From positions 124,001-188,000 of the forward strand of contig NZ_SJOJ01000001.1 of NCBI RefSeq assembly GCF_004330295.1: DNA of 64,000 nt, given 5' to 3'. Both the position numbers and the translations under genes were made by a program. The notes beneath the pieces were generated by a model. That model saw only the letters and a program-made list of their open reading frames with translations, was not told where the DNA came from and searched no databases. The DNA comes from Rahnella victoriana. Its GTDB lineage: Bacteria; Pseudomonadota; Gammaproteobacteria; Enterobacterales; Enterobacteriaceae. Numbering within the stretch: the stretch's first letter is position 1; every line of letters starts with the position of its first letter. This document shows positions 4,665 through 27,374 of this stretch, piece by piece.

Positions 4665-6437
4665 TCAGGCCCTCACCAGCGGACCAGGCGCTTTAAGATA
4701 TTGGGTTTTGATGGCTTCGGCTGCCCATAAGGTCAGCGCACCCACGGTCCCGGTCGGGTTATATCCGCCGTTGTTGGCAAAAGCGGAAGCCCCACACACA
4801 AAGACGTTATGGACATCCCAGCTTTGCAGATAACGGTTTACCGCACTGGTTTTCGGATCGTCACCCATACAGGCGCCGCCGGTGGTGTGCGAGGAAAGGT
4901 TATCCATCGGTGAGAACGGTTTGGTGGTCGGTTCCTGCCGCACAACGGTTTTTGCCCCCATAGCGTGCGCGATTTCAACCGAGCGGTCGGCCATAAATTT
5001 CGCTGACCGTTTATCGTTTTCGATCCAGTCGAACGTGACACGCAGCAGCGGCTGGCCGTGGCGGTCTTTATATTCAGGATCGAGATCGAGGAACACATCG
5101 CGGTGCGGGTAGCTGTTACCCATGCAGTAGATGTTGTTGTAGTTCTGATAGCTGTGTTTGACCGCTTTTTTCCAGTCTGCGCCCCAGCGCGGCGTACCCG
5201 GCGGAACGTTATTGGAATAGCCAATCGGACGGCCATTGGTGGAGTGCACCAGCGCCACACCGCCGCCGATGAAATCGTGATCGCTATGATCGAAGTTGTC
5301 GCCGTTGAAATCGTCAATGGCCTGCGACAGCGCACCGGCGCCGATAAACGGATTCATCATTTCATCTTCAAAGAAGAAGCCTGCACCGGACACGGTCTGA
5401 TAAGCATAGTTACGGCCCACCACGCCTTCGCCGGTTTTATGATCGTACGGCTTGCCGATTCCGGAAAGCAGCATCAGACGCACGTTATCCATCTGGTAGG
5501 CAGAAATCACCACGATATCCGCCGGTTGCTCCCACACCACGCCGTCGCTGCCGATAAAGGTCACGCCGGTGGCGGTTTTTCCGTCGGCGGCTTTATTCAC
5601 ACGCAAGACTTCCGATTCGGTGATCACCGTGAAATTCGGGCGCTGCATTACCGCAGGCAGGATACAGGCATTCGGACTGCTTTTTGACCAGTTGCCGCAG
5701 CCAAAGAATTCGCAATATCCGCAGTAAGTGCAAGGCGCCATATTGATGCCGAGCGGATTGGTATAGGCGTCTGACGTGTTGCCAGCGGGTACGGCAAACG
5801 GGTGATAGCCCATTTCGCGGGTGGCTTTATCGAAAATCATCGACAACTGAGTGCGCTTGAGTGGTGGCAACGGATAATCGCGGCTGCGCGGCCCTTCGAA
5901 GACGTTTCCGCCTTCGATTTTTTCGCCTTTGATGTTGCCCGCTTTCCCGGAAGTCCCGGCGTAGCGTTCGAATTTATCGTAGAAAGGTTCGACGTCAGCA
6001 AAGGTAACGCCCCAGTCCTGAACCTGCATACCGTCGAGGAATTTATTCTTACCGTAACGCTCAACCGTCTGGCTGTAACTCTGAAAATCGTATGGCAGGA
6101 AGCGCCAGGTCATGCCATTCCAGTGGGTACCCGCCCCGCCGACATTCATGCCAAACTGATAGGTGTTAAATTCACGCAGCGGCAACGCCTGCTGGATCGG
6201 GTTGTTACGAAATGTCAGGGTTTCCACCGCCGTCGGCTGCATGATGGCGCGGCGGCTGACGAAACGCAGTTCGTCGGTATCGATGGTGGTCGGGAAATCA
6301 TTACTGGTGTCGCGCCATGAACCGCGCTCAATCGCCACCACATTCAGTCCGGCCAGCGTCAGTTCATTCGCCATCAGCGAACCGGCCCATCCGAGGCCGA
6401 CGATGACCGCATCGACCTTCTCACGTTGATTACTCAT
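4665..6437 (-). CDS. GMC-family FAD subunit of gluconate 2-dehydrogenase-type enzyme
   Basis: Catalytic flavoprotein (590 residues) of the three-subunit membrane dehydrogenase. The N-terminus holds the Rossmann FAD-binding motif GLGWAGS (residues 14-20). The C-terminal GMC signature appears as GGACMGDDPKTSAVN, then FVCGASAFANNGGYNPTGTV. A cysteine-rich run (CTYCGYCEFFGCGNW) in the middle matches the cluster-binding segment found in this class of large subunits and would help move electrons to the cytochrome. It has no signal peptide; the family is exported as a complex carried by the Tat signal on the small subunit, the gene just upstream. Gluconate, 2-ketogluconate, fructose and sorbitol are possible substrates; the family context favours a sugar acid. 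Confidence 0.9.
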   Translation of the reverse strand: MSNQREKVDAVIVGLGWAGSLMANELTLAGLNVVAIERGSWRDTSNDFPTTIDTDELRFVSRRAIMQPTAVETLTFRNNPIQQALPLREFNTYQFGMNVGGAGTHWNGMTWRFLPYDFQSYSQTVERYGKNKFLDGMQVQDWGVTFADVEPFYDKFERYAGTSGKAGNIKGEKIEGGNVFEGPRSRDYPLPPLKRTQLSMIFDKATREMGYHPFAVPAGNTSDAYTNPLGINMAPCTYCGYCEFFGCGNWSKSSPNACILPAVMQRPNFTVITESEVLRVNKAADGKTATGVTFIGSDGVVWEQPADIVVISAYQMDNVRLMLLSGIGKPYDHKTGEGVVGRNYAYQTVSGAGFFFEDEMMNPFIGAGALSQAIDDFNGDNFDHSDHDFIGGGVALVHSTNGRPIGYSNNVPPGTPRWGADWKKAVKHSYQNYNNIYCMGNSYPHRDVFLDLDPEYKDRHGQPLLRVTFDWIENDKRSAKFMADRSVEIAHAMGAKTVVRQEPTTKPFSPMDNLSSHTTGGACMGDDPKTSAVNRYLQSWDVHNVFVCGASAFANNGGYNPTGTVGALTLWAAEAIKTQYLKAPGPLVRA

Positions 6438-22077: not shown

Positions 22078-24084
22078 TTATGAAATCGCAATAAACTGCT
22101 CGCGCAAGGCATGCAACTCGTCGCGGGTGTTGGCCGCTTCTTCGAACTCCAGATTCTGCGCGTGCGCATACATCTTGCTTTCCAGCTCTTTGATGCGCTG
22201 CTCCAGTGCTTTTGGCGTAAGCGATTTGAAGGTCTGCGCCGCTTCGGCATCGCGTTTGTCTTTGTTCTTTTTGGTCTTCGGCTGACCAAGTTGCAGGATG
22301 TCGGAAATCTTCTTGTTCAGCCCCATCGGCGTGATGCCGTTTTCGAGGTTATAGGCTTCCTGTTTGGCGCGACGACGCTCGGTTTCTTCGATGGCGCGGG
22401 CCATCGAATTGGTAATTTTATCGCCGTACAGAATCGCTTTACCGTTGAGGTTACGCGCCGCACGGCCAATGGTCTGGATCAGCGACCGTTCTGAACGCAG
22501 GAAGCCTTCTTTGTCGGCATCGAGGATCGCCACCAGCGACACTTCCGGCATATCCAGCCCTTCACGCAGCAAGTTGATGCCAACCAGCACGTCGAATTCG
22601 CCGAGACGCAAATCGCGGATGATCTCCACACGCTCGACGGTATCGATATCAGAGTGCAGGTAACGCACCTTCTCGCCGTGTTCTTCCAGATACTCGGTCA
22701 AATCCTCGGCCATGCGTTTGGTGAGCGTGGTGACCAGCACACGCTCGTTAATTGCCACGCGTTTGCGGATTTCAGACAGCAGATCATCGACCTGTGTACT
22801 CACCGGCCGGACTTCGATCAGCGGATCCAGCAGACCGGTCGGACGCACCACCTGATCAACCACATCGTCACCGGATTTCTCCAGCTCGTATTTCCCCGGC
22901 GTGGCCGAGACGTAAATACTTTGCGGTGCCAGCGCTTCGAATTCCTCAAAGCGCATCGGACGGTTATCCAGCGCCGAAGGCAGACGGAATCCGTATTCCA
23001 CCAGCGTTTCTTTCCGCGAGCGGTCGCCTTTGTACATGCCGCCGATTTGCGGAATGGTCACGTGTGATTCGTCGACAATCAGCAGGCCGTCGGCGGGCAG
23101 ATAATCAAACAGGGTCGGTGGCGGCTCGCCCGGCCCACGGCCGGACAGATAGCGCGAGTAGTTTTCGATACCGGAGCAATACCCCAGCTCGTTCATCATC
23201 TCGAGATCAAACTGCGTACGCTGGCTGATGCGCTGCTCTTCCAGCAGTTTATTATTCGCCAGCAGCACCTTGCGGCGGTCGGCCAGTTCAACTTTGATCT
23301 CTTCCATCGCCTGCACGATACGTTCGCGTGGCGTGACGTAGTGCGTTTTTGGGTAGATGGTGAAACGCGGCACTTCATGCTGTACCTGACCGGTCAGCGG
23401 ATCAAACAGTGACAGGCGTTCGACTTCCTGATCGAATAACTCAATACGCAGCGCCAGATCGTCGGATTCGGCCGGGAAGACGTCAATGACTTCGCCACGC
23501 ACGCGGAAGGTACTGCGCTGAAACGCCTGATCGTTACGGGCATATTGCAGCTCTGCCAGACGGCGCAGGATGGAACGCTGATCAATAATCATCCCTTTGG
23601 TCAGGTGCAGCATCATTTTCAGATACAGGTCCGGATCGCCCAGACCGTAGATGGCAGAAACCGACGCCACCACGATGACATCGCGGCGTTCCAGCAGGGC
23701 TTTAGTGGCAGAAAGACGCATCTGTTCGATATGTTCGTTCACAGACGCATCTTTTTCGATAAAGGTATCTGAACTCGGGACATACGCCTCGGGCTGATAA
23801 TAATCGTAGTAAGAGACAAAATACTCGACGGCGTTTTCCGGGAAGAACTCTTTCATCTCGCCGTATAGCTGTGCCGCCAGCGTTTTATTTGGCGCAAGAA
23901 CCATCGTCGGACGGTTGAGGTCTGCAATGACATTCGCCACCGTAAAGGTCTTGCCTGACCCGGTTACCCCCAGCAGTGTCTGGTGCGCCAGTCCGTTCTC
24001 CAGCCCTTCTTCCAGACGGCGTATCGCCTCAGGCTGATCACCTGATGGTTTAAATTCGGAATGCAGTTTGAACTCTTTACTCAT
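22078..24084 (-). CDS. uvrB: Excinuclease ABC subunit B
   Basis: DNA damage-recognition helicase-like subunit of the UvrABC nucleotide-excision repair complex (668 residues). Walker A is GVTGSGKT (39-46); the beta-hairpin region [12 protein letters not shown] that opens damaged DNA follows, then [27 protein letters not shown] and QTIGRAARN of helicase motifs. The C-terminal UVR domain ([33 protein letters not shown]) binds UvrC. A LexA box about 125 bp upstream shows SOS control. Confidence 0.98.
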
Positions 24085-24209
24085 GACGGGCTACCTGACT
24101 GAAGTGGGAACGTATAAGGCCGTGCGCGCTGAATGTGTGAACAGTTTGCGGAAAAACAGTATGAAAGACTTCGCGATTTTTGCCAGCCTTGATTTAACGC
24201 CGACTATAA

Positions 24210-24229
24210 TACTGTATATAAAAACAGCT
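24210..24229. promoter_or_regulatory. LexA (SOS) box of uvrB
   Basis: CTGTATATAAAAACAG is an exact match to the CTGT-N8-ACAG consensus, and on the coding strand it overlaps a -10-like element (CAGTATTAT), the same arrangement as the E. coli uvrB promoter. It is about 125 bp upstream of the uvrB start. Confidence 0.9.
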
Positions 24230-24532
24230 TCCAATGAATAAAAACGGCGGCGCATTTAACCGGTTGCTGCAACTGCACTTTTTTAGTGTGAATAAGAATA
24301 GGCATTCTCACCATCAGCGCCCATTTTTGCCCGGATTTTTCCTTTCATTCACTTTCTGACCACAGCTTGACGAAGTTTGACACAACGATGACGAACGAAT
24401 TACCCCTGTATTGCTTTTAACTAACTCATTGATTAAAAACAACATCATCAAAAAGCTGCGAATACGGGCAAACTGAGCGCAACCCGCATGCTGACTCGTC
24501 TGTAGCAACTTTTCTTACTCTCATGCACAAGG

Positions 24533-24555
24533 TTATCCACAGGAATAGTGGATAA
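24533..24555. promoter_or_regulatory. Inverted pair of DnaA boxes
   Basis: TTATCCACA, the strong DnaA-box sequence, is followed after 5 bp by AGTGGATAA, its near-exact inverse; the shared arms TTATCCAC/GTGGATAA are perfect with a 7-bp spacer. It sits about 450 bp upstream of uvrB. A DnaA-box-containing distal promoter has been described for E. coli uvrB, so this may be a conserved regulatory site. Confidence 0.65.
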
Positions 24556-24556
24556 G

Positions 24557-24632
24557 TCTCAGCACGCCCCGCGCTGCGGGAGTTGGTAAAAAAGCGCATT
24601 TTGCTTCTTCCGGGGCTGAGAGGGCTTTTTTA
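24557..24632 (+). terminator. Terminator-like structured RNA upstream of the ABC gene
   Basis: TCTCAG...CCCCG pairs with CGGGGCTGAGA (a 4-nt bulge on one side), enclosing a second possible hairpin CCCGC-GCT-GCGGG that competes for the same C-run. A six-U run and more U-rich sequence follow. The two structures are mutually exclusive, as in attenuators, or this is the 3' end of a small RNA. Confidence 0.4.
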
Positions 24633-25006
24633 GTTATTTTTTATCTTTTTTATCTCCTTATTTATGCCTATTTTGCCTAGATTTCCGGGCTGATGTTTCT
24701 TGCAAAACCCAAAAGTGCATCTCAGCAGGATTTTTCAGCTTCCTGAATGCCCAAACCTTGCACCAAAATCAGCGAGTCCGGCACTGCCGAAGTGCAGTTT
24801 TGTTTTTACCTGGATTTCCGTGAATCACAAAATCCTGACAATACTCATGAATAATCCTAAATCATCCCTGCGCCGCCTCTTAACAGCTCTGTAACCTCGT
24901 TTTTTATCACTGTCTGGTAAAACTTGGCCTGAGAGTTGCAAATTCACTCTTTGAAGAGATTTGGTGAAGGATTCCCCTGTAGATCGCGCGTACAGCGGAA
25001 CATAAA

Positions 25007-25022
25007 TGTCAGAAACATGACA
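25007..25022. promoter_or_regulatory. TGTCA-N6-TGACA palindrome before the orphan ABC gene
   Basis: TGTCA and TGACA arms separated by six bases lie 53 bp upstream of the start. The spacing resembles a dimeric regulator operator but the sequence is not that of CRP or FNR. The regulator is unknown. Confidence 0.3.
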
Positions 25023-25074
25023 GTGGCCGTCAAAATGTTGTCCGGTGAAAAGCTCCATGAGGGAGGTATGCCTG

Positions 25075-25785
25075 ATGTTAAGTGTAAAATCCGTTAATCA
25101 GTACTATGGGCAAAAACATATTCTGTGGGATATCAATCTCGAACTGTATCGCGGTCAGTGTACGTGCCTGATCGGCCGTAACGGCGTGGGAAAAACCACG
25201 CTGGTTAACTGCATCATGGGGCATCTACCGGTGAAAAGCGGCGCGATCTCCTGGCAGTCACGGGATGAAGAGCCGCAAAGCCTGCTGAACCTGCCGGTGG
25301 AAAGTCGTGCGCAAATTGGCATTGGCTATGTGCCACAAGGGCGGCAGATCTTTTCGCAGATGAGTGTGGATGAAAACCTGCAAATCGCCATGATGGCCAG
25401 CCGGAATAAAACCCGTCGCGTGCCGGAAGAGGTGTATGACCTGTTTCCGACATTAAAGGAGATGGGGGCGCGTAAAGCGGGGGAACTGGATGAAAGCCAG
25501 CAGCAGCAACTGGCGATCAGCCGGGCGCTGGTTCAGGAGCCGGAACTGCTGATTCTGGATGAACCGACCGAGCACACCAGCGCGTCGATGGCGGCGAACA
25601 TGGGCAATATCATTCACCGCCTGAACCGGGATCTCGGCCTGACCTTATTGCTGGTGGGTCATAAATTGCCGTTTATCCGCAGCGTCGCCGACCGGTTTTG
25701 TCTGGTCGATGGCGGACGCAACATCGCGCAGGGCACGCTGGCACAGCTCGACGACACGTTAGTCAAAAATTATCTGACCGTCTGA
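25075..25785 (+). CDS. Orphan ABC ATPase, UrtE/LivF-like, degenerate signature
   Basis: Cytoplasmic ATP-binding protein of 236 residues most like UrtE/LivF, the ATPases of urea and branched-chain amino acid importers. Walker A is GRNGVGKT (34-41), the Q-loop glutamine is Q88, Walker B is LLILDEP (158-164). The ABC signature, normally LSGGQ, reads LDESQ (138-142), and the D-loop region after DEPTE reads HTSAS instead of GIQPS. H196 occupies the switch position. No permease, binding protein or second ATPase is adjacent, so it is not part of a complete transporter here. The start follows GGGAGG. It ends 4 bp before the bioD stop on the opposite strand. Either a remnant or a repurposed ATPase. 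Confidence 0.8.
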   Translation: MLSVKSVNQYYGQKHILWDINLELYRGQCTCLIGRNGVGKTTLVNCIMGHLPVKSGAISWQSRDEEPQSLLNLPVESRAQIGIGYVPQGRQIFSQMSVDENLQIAMMASRNKTRRVPEEVYDLFPTLKEMGARKAGELDESQQQQLAISRALVQEPELLILDEPTEHTSASMAANMGNIIHRLNRDLGLTLLLVGHKLPFIRSVADRFCLVDGGRNIAQGTLAQLDDTLVKNYLTV

Positions 25786-25789
25786 CGTC

Positions 25790-26470
25790 TCACGCGGTGA
25801 GACGTTCGAGATCCAGATACTGACCGAGATTAACGTCCGTTCCGGCGTTCAGGTACGGGATCTCGCCCAGCAGCGGCGCGGGCAGCATGCGCGTGAGCGT
25901 CGCCATGTATGCCTGATGATGCTTCCCCGTTGCCTGCACGTCGTTGGCGATCCAGCCTGCTAACGTCAGCCCGCTATTTGCGATGGCCTGCGCCGTCAGC
26001 ACCGCGTGGTTGATACAACCGAGGCGCATCCCGACCACCAGCACCACCGGTAACTGCTCGGCGATAACCCAGTCGGCAAAGGTGTAATCTGCCGTCAGCG
26101 GCGTATACCAGCCGCCTGCGCCTTCCACCACCACCCAGTCCGCCAGCGGTTCCAGATGGCGTAATCCGGCGGATAACACCTGCGGATCGATGGGCCGTTT
26201 TTCCAGTTCGCTGACGATATGCGGCGAGGTGGGTTCGATAAAGGTGCACGGGTTCACTTCGTCATAACGCAGTCCCACCGTGCTGTAAGCCTGCAAGGCC
26301 AGCGCATCGCTGTTGCGCGGCCCTTCGCCGGTCATTTCACTGCCGGAAGCCACCGGTTTATAGCCTGCTGTTTTGTGTCCGGCACGGGCGGCGGCCTGCA
26401 AAAATGCGGTAGTCGCCACAGTTTTCCCGACTTCGGTATCGGTGCCGGTAATAAAGTATTTTTGTTTCAT
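25790..26470 (-). CDS. bioD: Dethiobiotin synthetase BioD
   Basis: ATP-dependent carboxylase (226 residues) that closes the ureido ring of dethiobiotin from 7,8-diaminopelargonate and CO2. The P-loop is GTDTEVGKT near the N-terminus, and the family motif VEGAGGWYTPL is intact. The start MKQKYFITG matches the E. coli protein; the open frame extends 32 codons into a REP-like repeat. Last gene of bioBFCD, 112 bp after bioC with a foldback repeat in the gap. Confidence 0.96.
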   Translation of the reverse strand: MKQKYFITGTDTEVGKTVATTAFLQAAARAGHKTAGYKPVASGSEMTGEGPRNSDALALQAYSTVGLRYDEVNPCTFIEPTSPHIVSELEKRPIDPQVLSAGLRHLEPLADWVVVEGAGGWYTPLTADYTFADWVIAEQLPVVLVVGMRLGCINHAVLTAQAIANSGLTLAGWIANDVQATGKHHQAYMATLTRMLPAPLLGEIPYLNAGTDVNLGQYLDLERLTA

Positions 26471-26520
26471 GAAAAGCCTGGTGTTGGTTGGCTCCCTCCC
26501 CGCATTGAAATCGGTTTTTG

Positions 26521-26578
26521 CTCCTCCCCCTGCGAAGGGGGAGGGAGCAGACCGCGCCGGTTTCAAACCGGGGAGGAG
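26521..26578. repeat. REP-like foldback within the bio operon
   Basis: Outer arms CTCCTCCCC / GGGGAGGAG enclose a CCCCCTGCGAAGGGGG hairpin and a CCGGTTT-C-AAACCGG hairpin. The first core is the same as in the repeat pair after mdtG. It lies between bioC and bioD, where it could reduce read-through or protect upstream mRNA. Confidence 0.75.
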
Positions 26579-26582
26579 TAAT

Positions 26583-27374
26583 TTATCTTGGGATCAGTTC
26601 TTCGACCTGCAAAATGCCGTAGACCAGCCGGTAGTTGAGCGGCAGGATGCCGTCGCGGCGGACGTAGTGTTTTTCCAGCAATTGCAGACGCTCCCTGCCC
26701 CCCAGACCGCCGAGGCGGCCATTTTTAATGTGCGTCGCGCCGATGCCTTTCAGGGAGCGCATCAGGGACATCACATCGGGGAATTCAGCGACGTGATCGC
26801 TGAACGTCACTTCATGGCGATACGGCGCGCAGGCTTCGGCGATTTTGTCCGGCGTCAGGAACTGATTCACATGACGACGGCCATCGACTTTCATCCATGC
26901 AGCCGCCAGTTCATTAAGCGAACCCTCGGCCAGCGTGGAAAACAGCACCAGCCCGCCGTTGCGGGTGACGCGGTGCATCTCTTCCAGCGCGCGCGGCAGT
27001 GCGTTGCACCACTGCACGGCCAGATTGCTGAAACAAATATCGACAGAATTGTCGGCGAACGGCAAACGTTCGATGTCGCCCGGCACGTATTCATCGGCGG
27101 AATCCAGCTCGCGGGCACGGTTTAACATGCCTTCCGAGAGATCCAAGGCGATGACATTTTTGCCCTGCGCCCGCCAGTGACGGCTGAAATATCCGGTGCC
27201 GCAGCCCGCATCGACCACGATTTTTCCCGCATCTTGCAGATACGGCGCAGCCAGTGCCAGCAATTCCTCACCCACGTCACGCTGCAATTGTGCGGCGTTT
27301 TCATAACTGATGGCGGCGCGACTGAACGCGTCGGCCACCGCTTGTTTGTTCACTAATTCAGTGACTGCACCCAT
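26583..27374 (-). CDS. bioC: Malonyl-[acyl-carrier protein] O-methyltransferase BioC
   Basis: S-adenosylmethionine-dependent methyltransferase (263 residues) that methylates malonyl-ACP so the fatty-acid pathway can build the pimeloyl chain of biotin. Motif I is [12 protein letters not shown], followed by [11 protein letters not shown] and [24 protein letters not shown]. The start [17 protein letters not shown] overlaps the bioF stop by 17 bases and is preceded by GGAG. BioH, the partner esterase, is not in the window. Confidence 0.95.

Follow-up and report, generated by a model that had tools for sequence, protein, structure and literature searches.

An orphan gene lying between uvrB and bioD in the window (the whole 64,000-nucleotide stretch of Rahnella victoriana DNA analyzed here) encodes an ABC-type nucleotide-binding domain (NBD) that lacks the LSGGQ signature and scores below the UrtE cut-off, yet is UrtE-descended. 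Judging from the DNA upstream of it, the gene, which Escherichia coli lacks, very probably belongs to the Ntr regulon and responds to nitrogen limitation. The sigma-54 and NtrC sites found there, which the initial annotation had not noticed, are the best clue to its function. The features of the locus are collected in Table 1.

Table 1. Features of the orphan gene and its surroundings, in window coordinates
Feature	Position	Strand	Remarks
uvrB	22078..24084	-	Divergent upstream neighbor in 149/149 carriers
DnaA-box palindrome, DARS1-like	24510..24570	.	In the uvrB promoter region (neighbor, outside the gene); conserved
Second NtrC half-box TTGCACCAAAATCAG	24758..24772	+	About two helical turns above the palindrome
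NtrC-box-like palindrome GGCACTGCCGAAGTGCA	24780..24796	.	9/10 half-site positions
Sigma-54 (-24/-12) promoter motif TGGCCTGAGAGTTGC	24925..24939	+	Starts 150 nt before the start codon
Shine-Dalgarno-like AGGGAGG	25060..25066	+	Read from the sequence
Orphan UrtE-derived ABC ATPase gene, without LSGGQ signature	25075..25785	+	236 aa
LDESQ codons	25486..25500	+	Residues 138-142; UrtE counterpart is LSGGQ
D-loop stretch TEHTSASMA codons	25567..25593	+	Residues 165-173; constraint lost in the clade
bioD	25790..26470	-	Convergent neighbor; stop codons 4 bases apart

The initial annotation had described an orphan UrtE-like ABC ATPase with intact Walker A, Q-loop and Walker B motifs, an altered signature, a good ribosome site and an open frame. 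All of these were re-read from the window. The frame runs uninterrupted from the ATG (25075) to the stop codon (25785) behind the AGGGAGG listed in Table 1, and its translation has GRNGVGKTT as Walker A, YVPQGR in the Q-loop region and LLILDEP as Walker B, followed by TEHTSASM, with His at the switch position. LDESQ at the signature place and HTSAS in the D-loop area were likewise confirmed, so that the LSGGQ-type signature of ABC ATPases is missing from the window protein. The protein scored 95 bits against the ABC ATPase profile PF00005 (cut-off 25), and its best NCBIfam match, over the full length, was the UrtE model TIGR03410 at 259.5 bits, below the curated cut-off of 285.8. An AlphaFold2 model gave a confident NBD fold (pLDDT 94.9, from a 48-sequence alignment of mostly ordinary NBDs); a structure predicted from the single sequence (pLDDT 35) was discarded. 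A structure search with the model returned 1ji0 as the best PDB match (TM 0.91), with LptB also among the best, and 1ji0 was the best PDB match by sequence too. The orphan protein thus shares its fold with the LivF/1JI0-type NBDs of branched-chain amino acid importers but differs from them in having neither the signature nor an adjoining permease gene; it is 34-35% identical to two paralogs of the same genome which, by their motifs, were taken for LivF-like proteins. With UrtE it has the Walker A, Q-loop and Walker B motifs in common, but it does not lie in a urt operon, having uvrB and bioD as neighbors and a promoter motif of its own.

Judged by its sequence, the gene is descended from a gammaproteobacterial UrtE, and its relatives form one clade. 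In a tree computed without the signature and D-loop columns, the 74 orphan rows lay beyond a single branch with an SH-aLRT support of 100, and with a LivF-like outgroup they fell among UrtE proteins of the Chromatiales, Halomonadaceae and Marinobacter type. This was a quick tree, in which the nearby branches had supports of 78, 70, 93 and 93 and one deeper branch 14, the orphan stem was long, and long branches met near the root. The profile match, the tree and a survey of the signature in relatives (see below) all support the initial annotation as to the nature of the protein. The initial annotation had also advised looking for a urt or liv operon elsewhere, and urtABCDE was found in the same genome; the UrtE encoded there is far from the orphan clade in the tree and is not its closest relative. 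Near this urt operon an open reading frame (L085, 11935-12999) with the biotin-carrier motif EAMKM was observed, probably part of a urea carboxylase.

The distribution of the gene was examined in two draws of genomes. In the first, 67 of 198 genomes of the family matched at E ≤ 1e-60, and 67 of the 67 matches adjoin uvrB. A profile of 31 members, all from carriers, was then run against the other 131 genomes of this draw and yielded two further intact copies (G011 and G154) and three broken ones (G026, G054 and G107); a fourth broken copy, in G104, was missed by the profile and found at the uvrB site, showing that the profile search can miss copies. The second draw comprised 391 genomes with a completeness of 95% or more and gave 147 carriers at E ≤ 1e-75, in 50 of the 147 genera sampled, although fractions of all genomes mean little since the draws hold many reduced symbionts. 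All 149 intact copies from the two draws were examined, and within the flanks fetched every one had uvrB upstream and divergent, an arrangement that is not due to chance. The orthologue search that the initial annotation had proposed thus led to 149 intact copies at one fixed locus.

The carriers, many of them gut- or plant-associated bacteria, include Edaphovirga cremea, Erwinia rhapontici, Kosakonia pseudosacchari and a plasmid of Klebsiella pneumoniae, and in the records of all four uvrB is divergent upstream and bioD is downstream. The Klebsiella record annotates the gene as "ATP-binding cassette domain-containing protein," and in an Enterobacter hormaechei plasmid record the match spans a gene of the same name plus bioD. 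The Klebsiella plasmid (L167, NZ_CP079601.1) carries a chromosome-like block, eptA-pmrAB-uvrB-orphan gene-bioDCFB-bioA, in which a small hypothetical protein is annotated at 5702-5914 between uvrB and the orphan gene.

As the initial annotation had noted, no transporter gene adjoins the orphan gene, its neighbors being uvrB and bioD, and the site is empty in E. coli: the bioD-uvrB gap of strain K-12 has no annotated gene. A search of 5,426 E. coli genomes with positions 24085-25785 of the window found no place matching over 80% of the query; the matches in three of these genomes are to a genuine urtE. Between uvrB and bioD, two genomes of genus g23 that lack the gene have a different open reading frame (L255, 1473-2117; L264, 1601-2134). 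The window bioD is 60-63% identical to two counterparts in the genus, and the adjoining bioC 91-92%. A search for RNA elements in positions 23900-26600 gave no Rfam hit at E values of up to 1.

The intergenic region also holds a DnaA-box palindrome with the core GTTATCCACAGGAATAGTGGATAA, lying between uvrB and the orphan gene. It scored at least 30 in 64 of the 67 first-draw carriers, and its reverse complement is present in the bioD-uvrB gap of E. coli K-12. DARS1 is placed at uvrBp3 in the portion of PMC6015884 cited here; since the palindrome occupies the same place, conservation of DARS1 seems to extend beyond E. coli.

The signature was then surveyed across the clade. The initial annotation had proposed that orthologues without a shared LDESQ would favor a decaying remnant. 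The exact word recurs in just 7 of the 149 copies, and what is common to all 149 is the loss of SGG, so the proposed rule is too strict, the letters varying by genus. At the signature place 91 different pentapeptides were counted among the 149 copies; G140 was kept in 21 and G141 in 16, and the two never together. In contrast, LSGGQ, with its SGG, was present in all 53 UrtE proteins compared, all of which score over the UrtE cut-off and make up the best-scoring part of those found rather than a random sample. The Walker residues were nearly invariant in the orphans, with the Walker A lysine K40 and the Walker B aspartate D162 kept in 149 of 149 and the catalytic glutamate E163 in 148 of 149. 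The Q-loop glutamine was missing in 12 copies, and the switch position was His in 37. One carrier, L068, stands alone among the 149 in two respects: its catalytic Glu is replaced by Gln, and it lacks the promoter motif described below. It may have just begun to decay or to be put to a new use.

Constraint was compared between 71 orphan rows (one genome counted twice, as L022 and L087) and the 53 UrtE proteins, sets of similar mean identity (0.59 and 0.57) and similar mean column entropy (1.31 and 1.34 bits). The main losses of constraint relative to UrtE fell in the signature (+2.20 bits) and the D-loop (+1.94 bits), and only 1 of 20,000 random pairs of segments showed a rise as large as that of the two together. 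Walker B was slightly more constrained (-0.12 bits), the Q-loop with the following, groove helix scarcely differed (+0.07 bits), and the N- and C-terminal parts were more constrained in the orphans than in UrtE (-0.66 and -0.53 bits). Smaller rises beside the signature (residues 131-137, +0.88 bits; residues 143-152, +0.62 bits) and in Walker A (+0.42 bits, mainly at residues 35 and 36) indicate that the loss is not confined to the two loops. Some positions, for example W60, C46 and A218, are invariant in the 71 orphan rows and variable in UrtE. In an NBD dimer the signature and D-loop reach across to the ATP of the partner. With these lost and the Walker motifs kept, the half of the ATP site acting in cis has been retained and the half acting in trans is gone.

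The orphan gene is under strong purifying selection in close pairs. Of 21 close pairs, 20 gave a dN/dS value, and these ranged from 0.012 to 0.095 (two methods); in 9 further pairs the ratio was 0.018-0.126, and dS was near saturation in several pairs. Among the further pairs, carriers without UrtC and LivG matches gave ratios of 0.018-0.054 (genus g98) and 0.073-0.126 (genus g153). The dN/dS test suggested in the initial annotation thus returned 0.01-0.13, that is, purifying selection, and its view that the gene is not in simple decay is borne out by this selection and by the universal loss of SGG; decay is seen in four genomes, whose copies are broken.

The evidence on regulation comes from the upstream region. 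An alignment of this region from six genomes contained conserved blocks, and one of these, TTGGCCTGAGAGTTGCAA, is built like a sigma-54 promoter of the -24/-12 type. Within 450 nt upstream, TGGC-N7-TTGC was found on the gene strand in 65 of the 67 first-draw carriers and on the other strand in none, against an expectation of 1.2 of 67 from shuffles; within 500 nt, it was found on the gene strand in 148 of the 149 intact copies and on the other strand in one. The distance from the motif to the start codon ranges from 53 to 472 nt, and the spacer and the base after TGGC vary too, so that conservation of the motif is not merely a matter of recent descent. A search for a sigma-70 promoter produced one weak site, on the opposite strand and no commoner than in shuffles. 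A further block, the inverted repeat TGTCAGAAacATGACAGTGGCCGTCA at about 25004-25034 of the window in the presumed 5' untranslated region, is conserved in the six genomes.

As a control, 36 uvrB upstream regions from non-carriers were scanned, comprising 35 of the 47 large matchless genomes plus E. coli K-12; in 8 of the 35 fetched regions bioD was not found, and a fixed stretch of 1,400 bases was scanned. The motif was oriented toward bioD in 0 of 35 gene-less uvrB regions; in one of them, L283, a site faces uvrB. The 36th region, that of G104 with its broken copy, has the motif, and the broken copies of G026, G054 and G107, which lie at the same uvrB site, also keep it.

Upstream of the motif an NtrC-box palindrome was found in all 148 copies that have the motif, matching at 9 of 10 positions in 138 and at 8 of 10 in the other 10. 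Of the shuffled sequences 1.2% reached 9/10 and a further 11.3% reached 8/10, which makes the ten 8/10 matches weak. Of the 148 copies, 126 also have a TGCACC half-box, at 20-23 bp above the palindrome. The NtrC consensus, as given in the passages of PMC4987338 and PMC8743547 drawn on here, is the same palindrome, and Table 1 of PMC4987338 gives glnA, glnK-amtB, glnHPQ and others as the NtrC/sigma-54 regulon of enterics. These genes have a -24/-12 motif and an NtrC-box palindrome upstream, as the orphan gene has; the orphan gene is not among the NtrC targets given in that part of PMC4987338 and is absent from E. coli K-12. The occurrence of the promoter motif and NtrC boxes in nearly all carriers is the ground for the proposed assignment to the Ntr regulon. 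No paper describing the gene was found in the literature, as judged by titles and the openings of abstracts.

Next, we considered with which importers the orphan protein might act. UrtC was found in 109 of the 147 second-draw carriers and in 28 genomes without the orphan gene, and in the first draw in 51 of 69 intact carriers versus 10 of the 47 other large genomes (p = 2e-8 in Fisher's test, not corrected for phylogeny; G104 is among the 47). The orphan gene and UrtC vary together in three genera (g2, g24 and g41), while in six genera some members have the orphan gene and no UrtC, and G595 (95% complete, 220 contigs) has UrtC without the orphan gene in a genus of carriers. Strict dependence on a urt operon was rejected because 38 of the 147 second-draw carriers had no UrtC match. 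LivG was matched in 31 of these 38 (above the cut-off in 29), and the remaining 7 gave no match at E ≤ 1e-60, so that strict dependence on LivG was rejected as well. Since the gene is still under selection in carriers without UrtC and LivG, none of the single HAAT importers tested is its general partner. A link with nitrogen importers is nevertheless plausible. In Klebsiella oxytoca, according to the passages of PMC8381380 cited here, UrtABCDE is upregulated when nitrogen runs out, with NtrC and sigma-54 suspected, and the main text of that study contains no mention of uvrB or bioD.

The most likely role of the protein would be that of an ATP-binding pseudo-subunit acting on nitrogen-compound importers. 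We propose that a UrtE of the gammaproteobacterial type may have been recruited once, to the uvrB-bioD locus, in an ancestor of the family studied here, within the Enterobacterales, and would have joined the NtrC/sigma-54 regulon of nitrogen limitation as a single gene. Under nitrogen limitation the protein would be made and would bind ATP in cis, and, supplying no signature half of the ATP sandwich, it would not form an ordinary homodimeric motor. It would keep its permease-docking surface and could compete with, or pair asymmetrically in place of, a LivF/UrtE-type motor, so that uptake of nitrogen compounds through the urea or branched-chain amino acid (HAAT) importers, or a similar permease, would be set or braked. 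The switch position is Gln in UrtE and His in UrtD, from which we infer that the canonical UrtDE site joins the Walker site of UrtD to the signature of UrtE. An orphan in the place of UrtE would spoil this site, which favors a braking or tuning pseudo-subunit over an alternative motor. Against a pure brake, the switch His in 37 of 149 copies, the window protein included, fits an active half-site better. A UrtE-derived Ntr-regulon pseudo-subunit that tunes or brakes nitrogen-compound importers is therefore offered as the best explanation, though tentatively, with somewhat less than an even chance of being right. The fuller statement, that the protein is a free-standing pseudo-NBD, induced through NtrC on nitrogen starvation, binding ATP, docking on a permease as a brake or rewiring subunit, and widespread in the Enterobacterales, is possible but on balance rather unlikely to hold in full.

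Alternatively, the protein may not act on a permease at all but serve the nitrogen response as an ATP-binding regulator or assembly factor. Retention of the gene where UrtC and LivG matches are missing would fit such a switch, as would the orphan-specific invariance of W60, C46 and A218 and the tighter constraint on the terminal parts; however, nothing points to a particular target, and constraint on the permease-groove segment almost equals that in UrtE. We consider this reading unlikely.

Another candidate is an active asymmetric motor, in which the orphan takes the place of UrtE or LivF and dimerizes with UrtD or LivG, the signature of the partner completing the Walker site of the orphan and the other site being dead. 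ABC heterodimers in which one of the two nucleotide sites is degenerate, for example TM287/288, TAP and BmrCD, combine intact Walker motifs with a noncanonical signature as the orphan does; one subunit of such a pair has, like the orphan, preserved Walker A and B and lost the signature. They are permease-linked pairs, however, whereas the orphan is a free single-gene NBD whose D-loop has been lost too. The maintained constraint on the Q-loop and groove helix, the switch His of the 37 copies and the LivG matches in most of the UrtC-less carriers are consistent with such a motor, but it would destroy the canonical site formed by the UrtD Walker motifs and the UrtE signature, and in seven carriers UrtC and LivG matches are both missing. 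An asymmetric motor appears slightly less likely than a switch away from the permease.

It is very improbable that the RNA rather than the protein matters, with the sigma-54 transcript running against bioD or affecting uvrB or DARS1. The stop codons of the two genes nearly meet in the window, and the frames overlap in an estimated 25 of 63 loci, but purifying selection acts on the protein and the distance to bioD, estimated from alignments, varies between about -428 and +2146. Because this distance is not conserved, a conserved function in antisense to bioD or in overlap with it was rejected. Least probable of all is a decaying relic of a lost urt operon: the four broken copies at the same site and the variable signature letters would agree with it, but the low dN/dS, the Walker residues kept in 148 or 149 of 149 and the retained promoter motif and NtrC boxes do not, and for the clade as a whole decay is refuted by selection and conservation in spite of the broken copies.

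E. coli K-12, the model for the enteric nitrogen response, does not have the gene, which would explain how it could have been missed. If the regulatory assignment is true, many enteric genera, with carriers in a third or so of those sampled, hold an undescribed protein of the Ntr regulon. If the reading of the ATP site is true, the clade would be a natural case among ABC proteins in which the trans-acting half of the site has been discarded and the cis half kept under selection. It would then show an ABC motor put to regulatory use after evolution had removed its trans-acting half, signature and D-loop alike.
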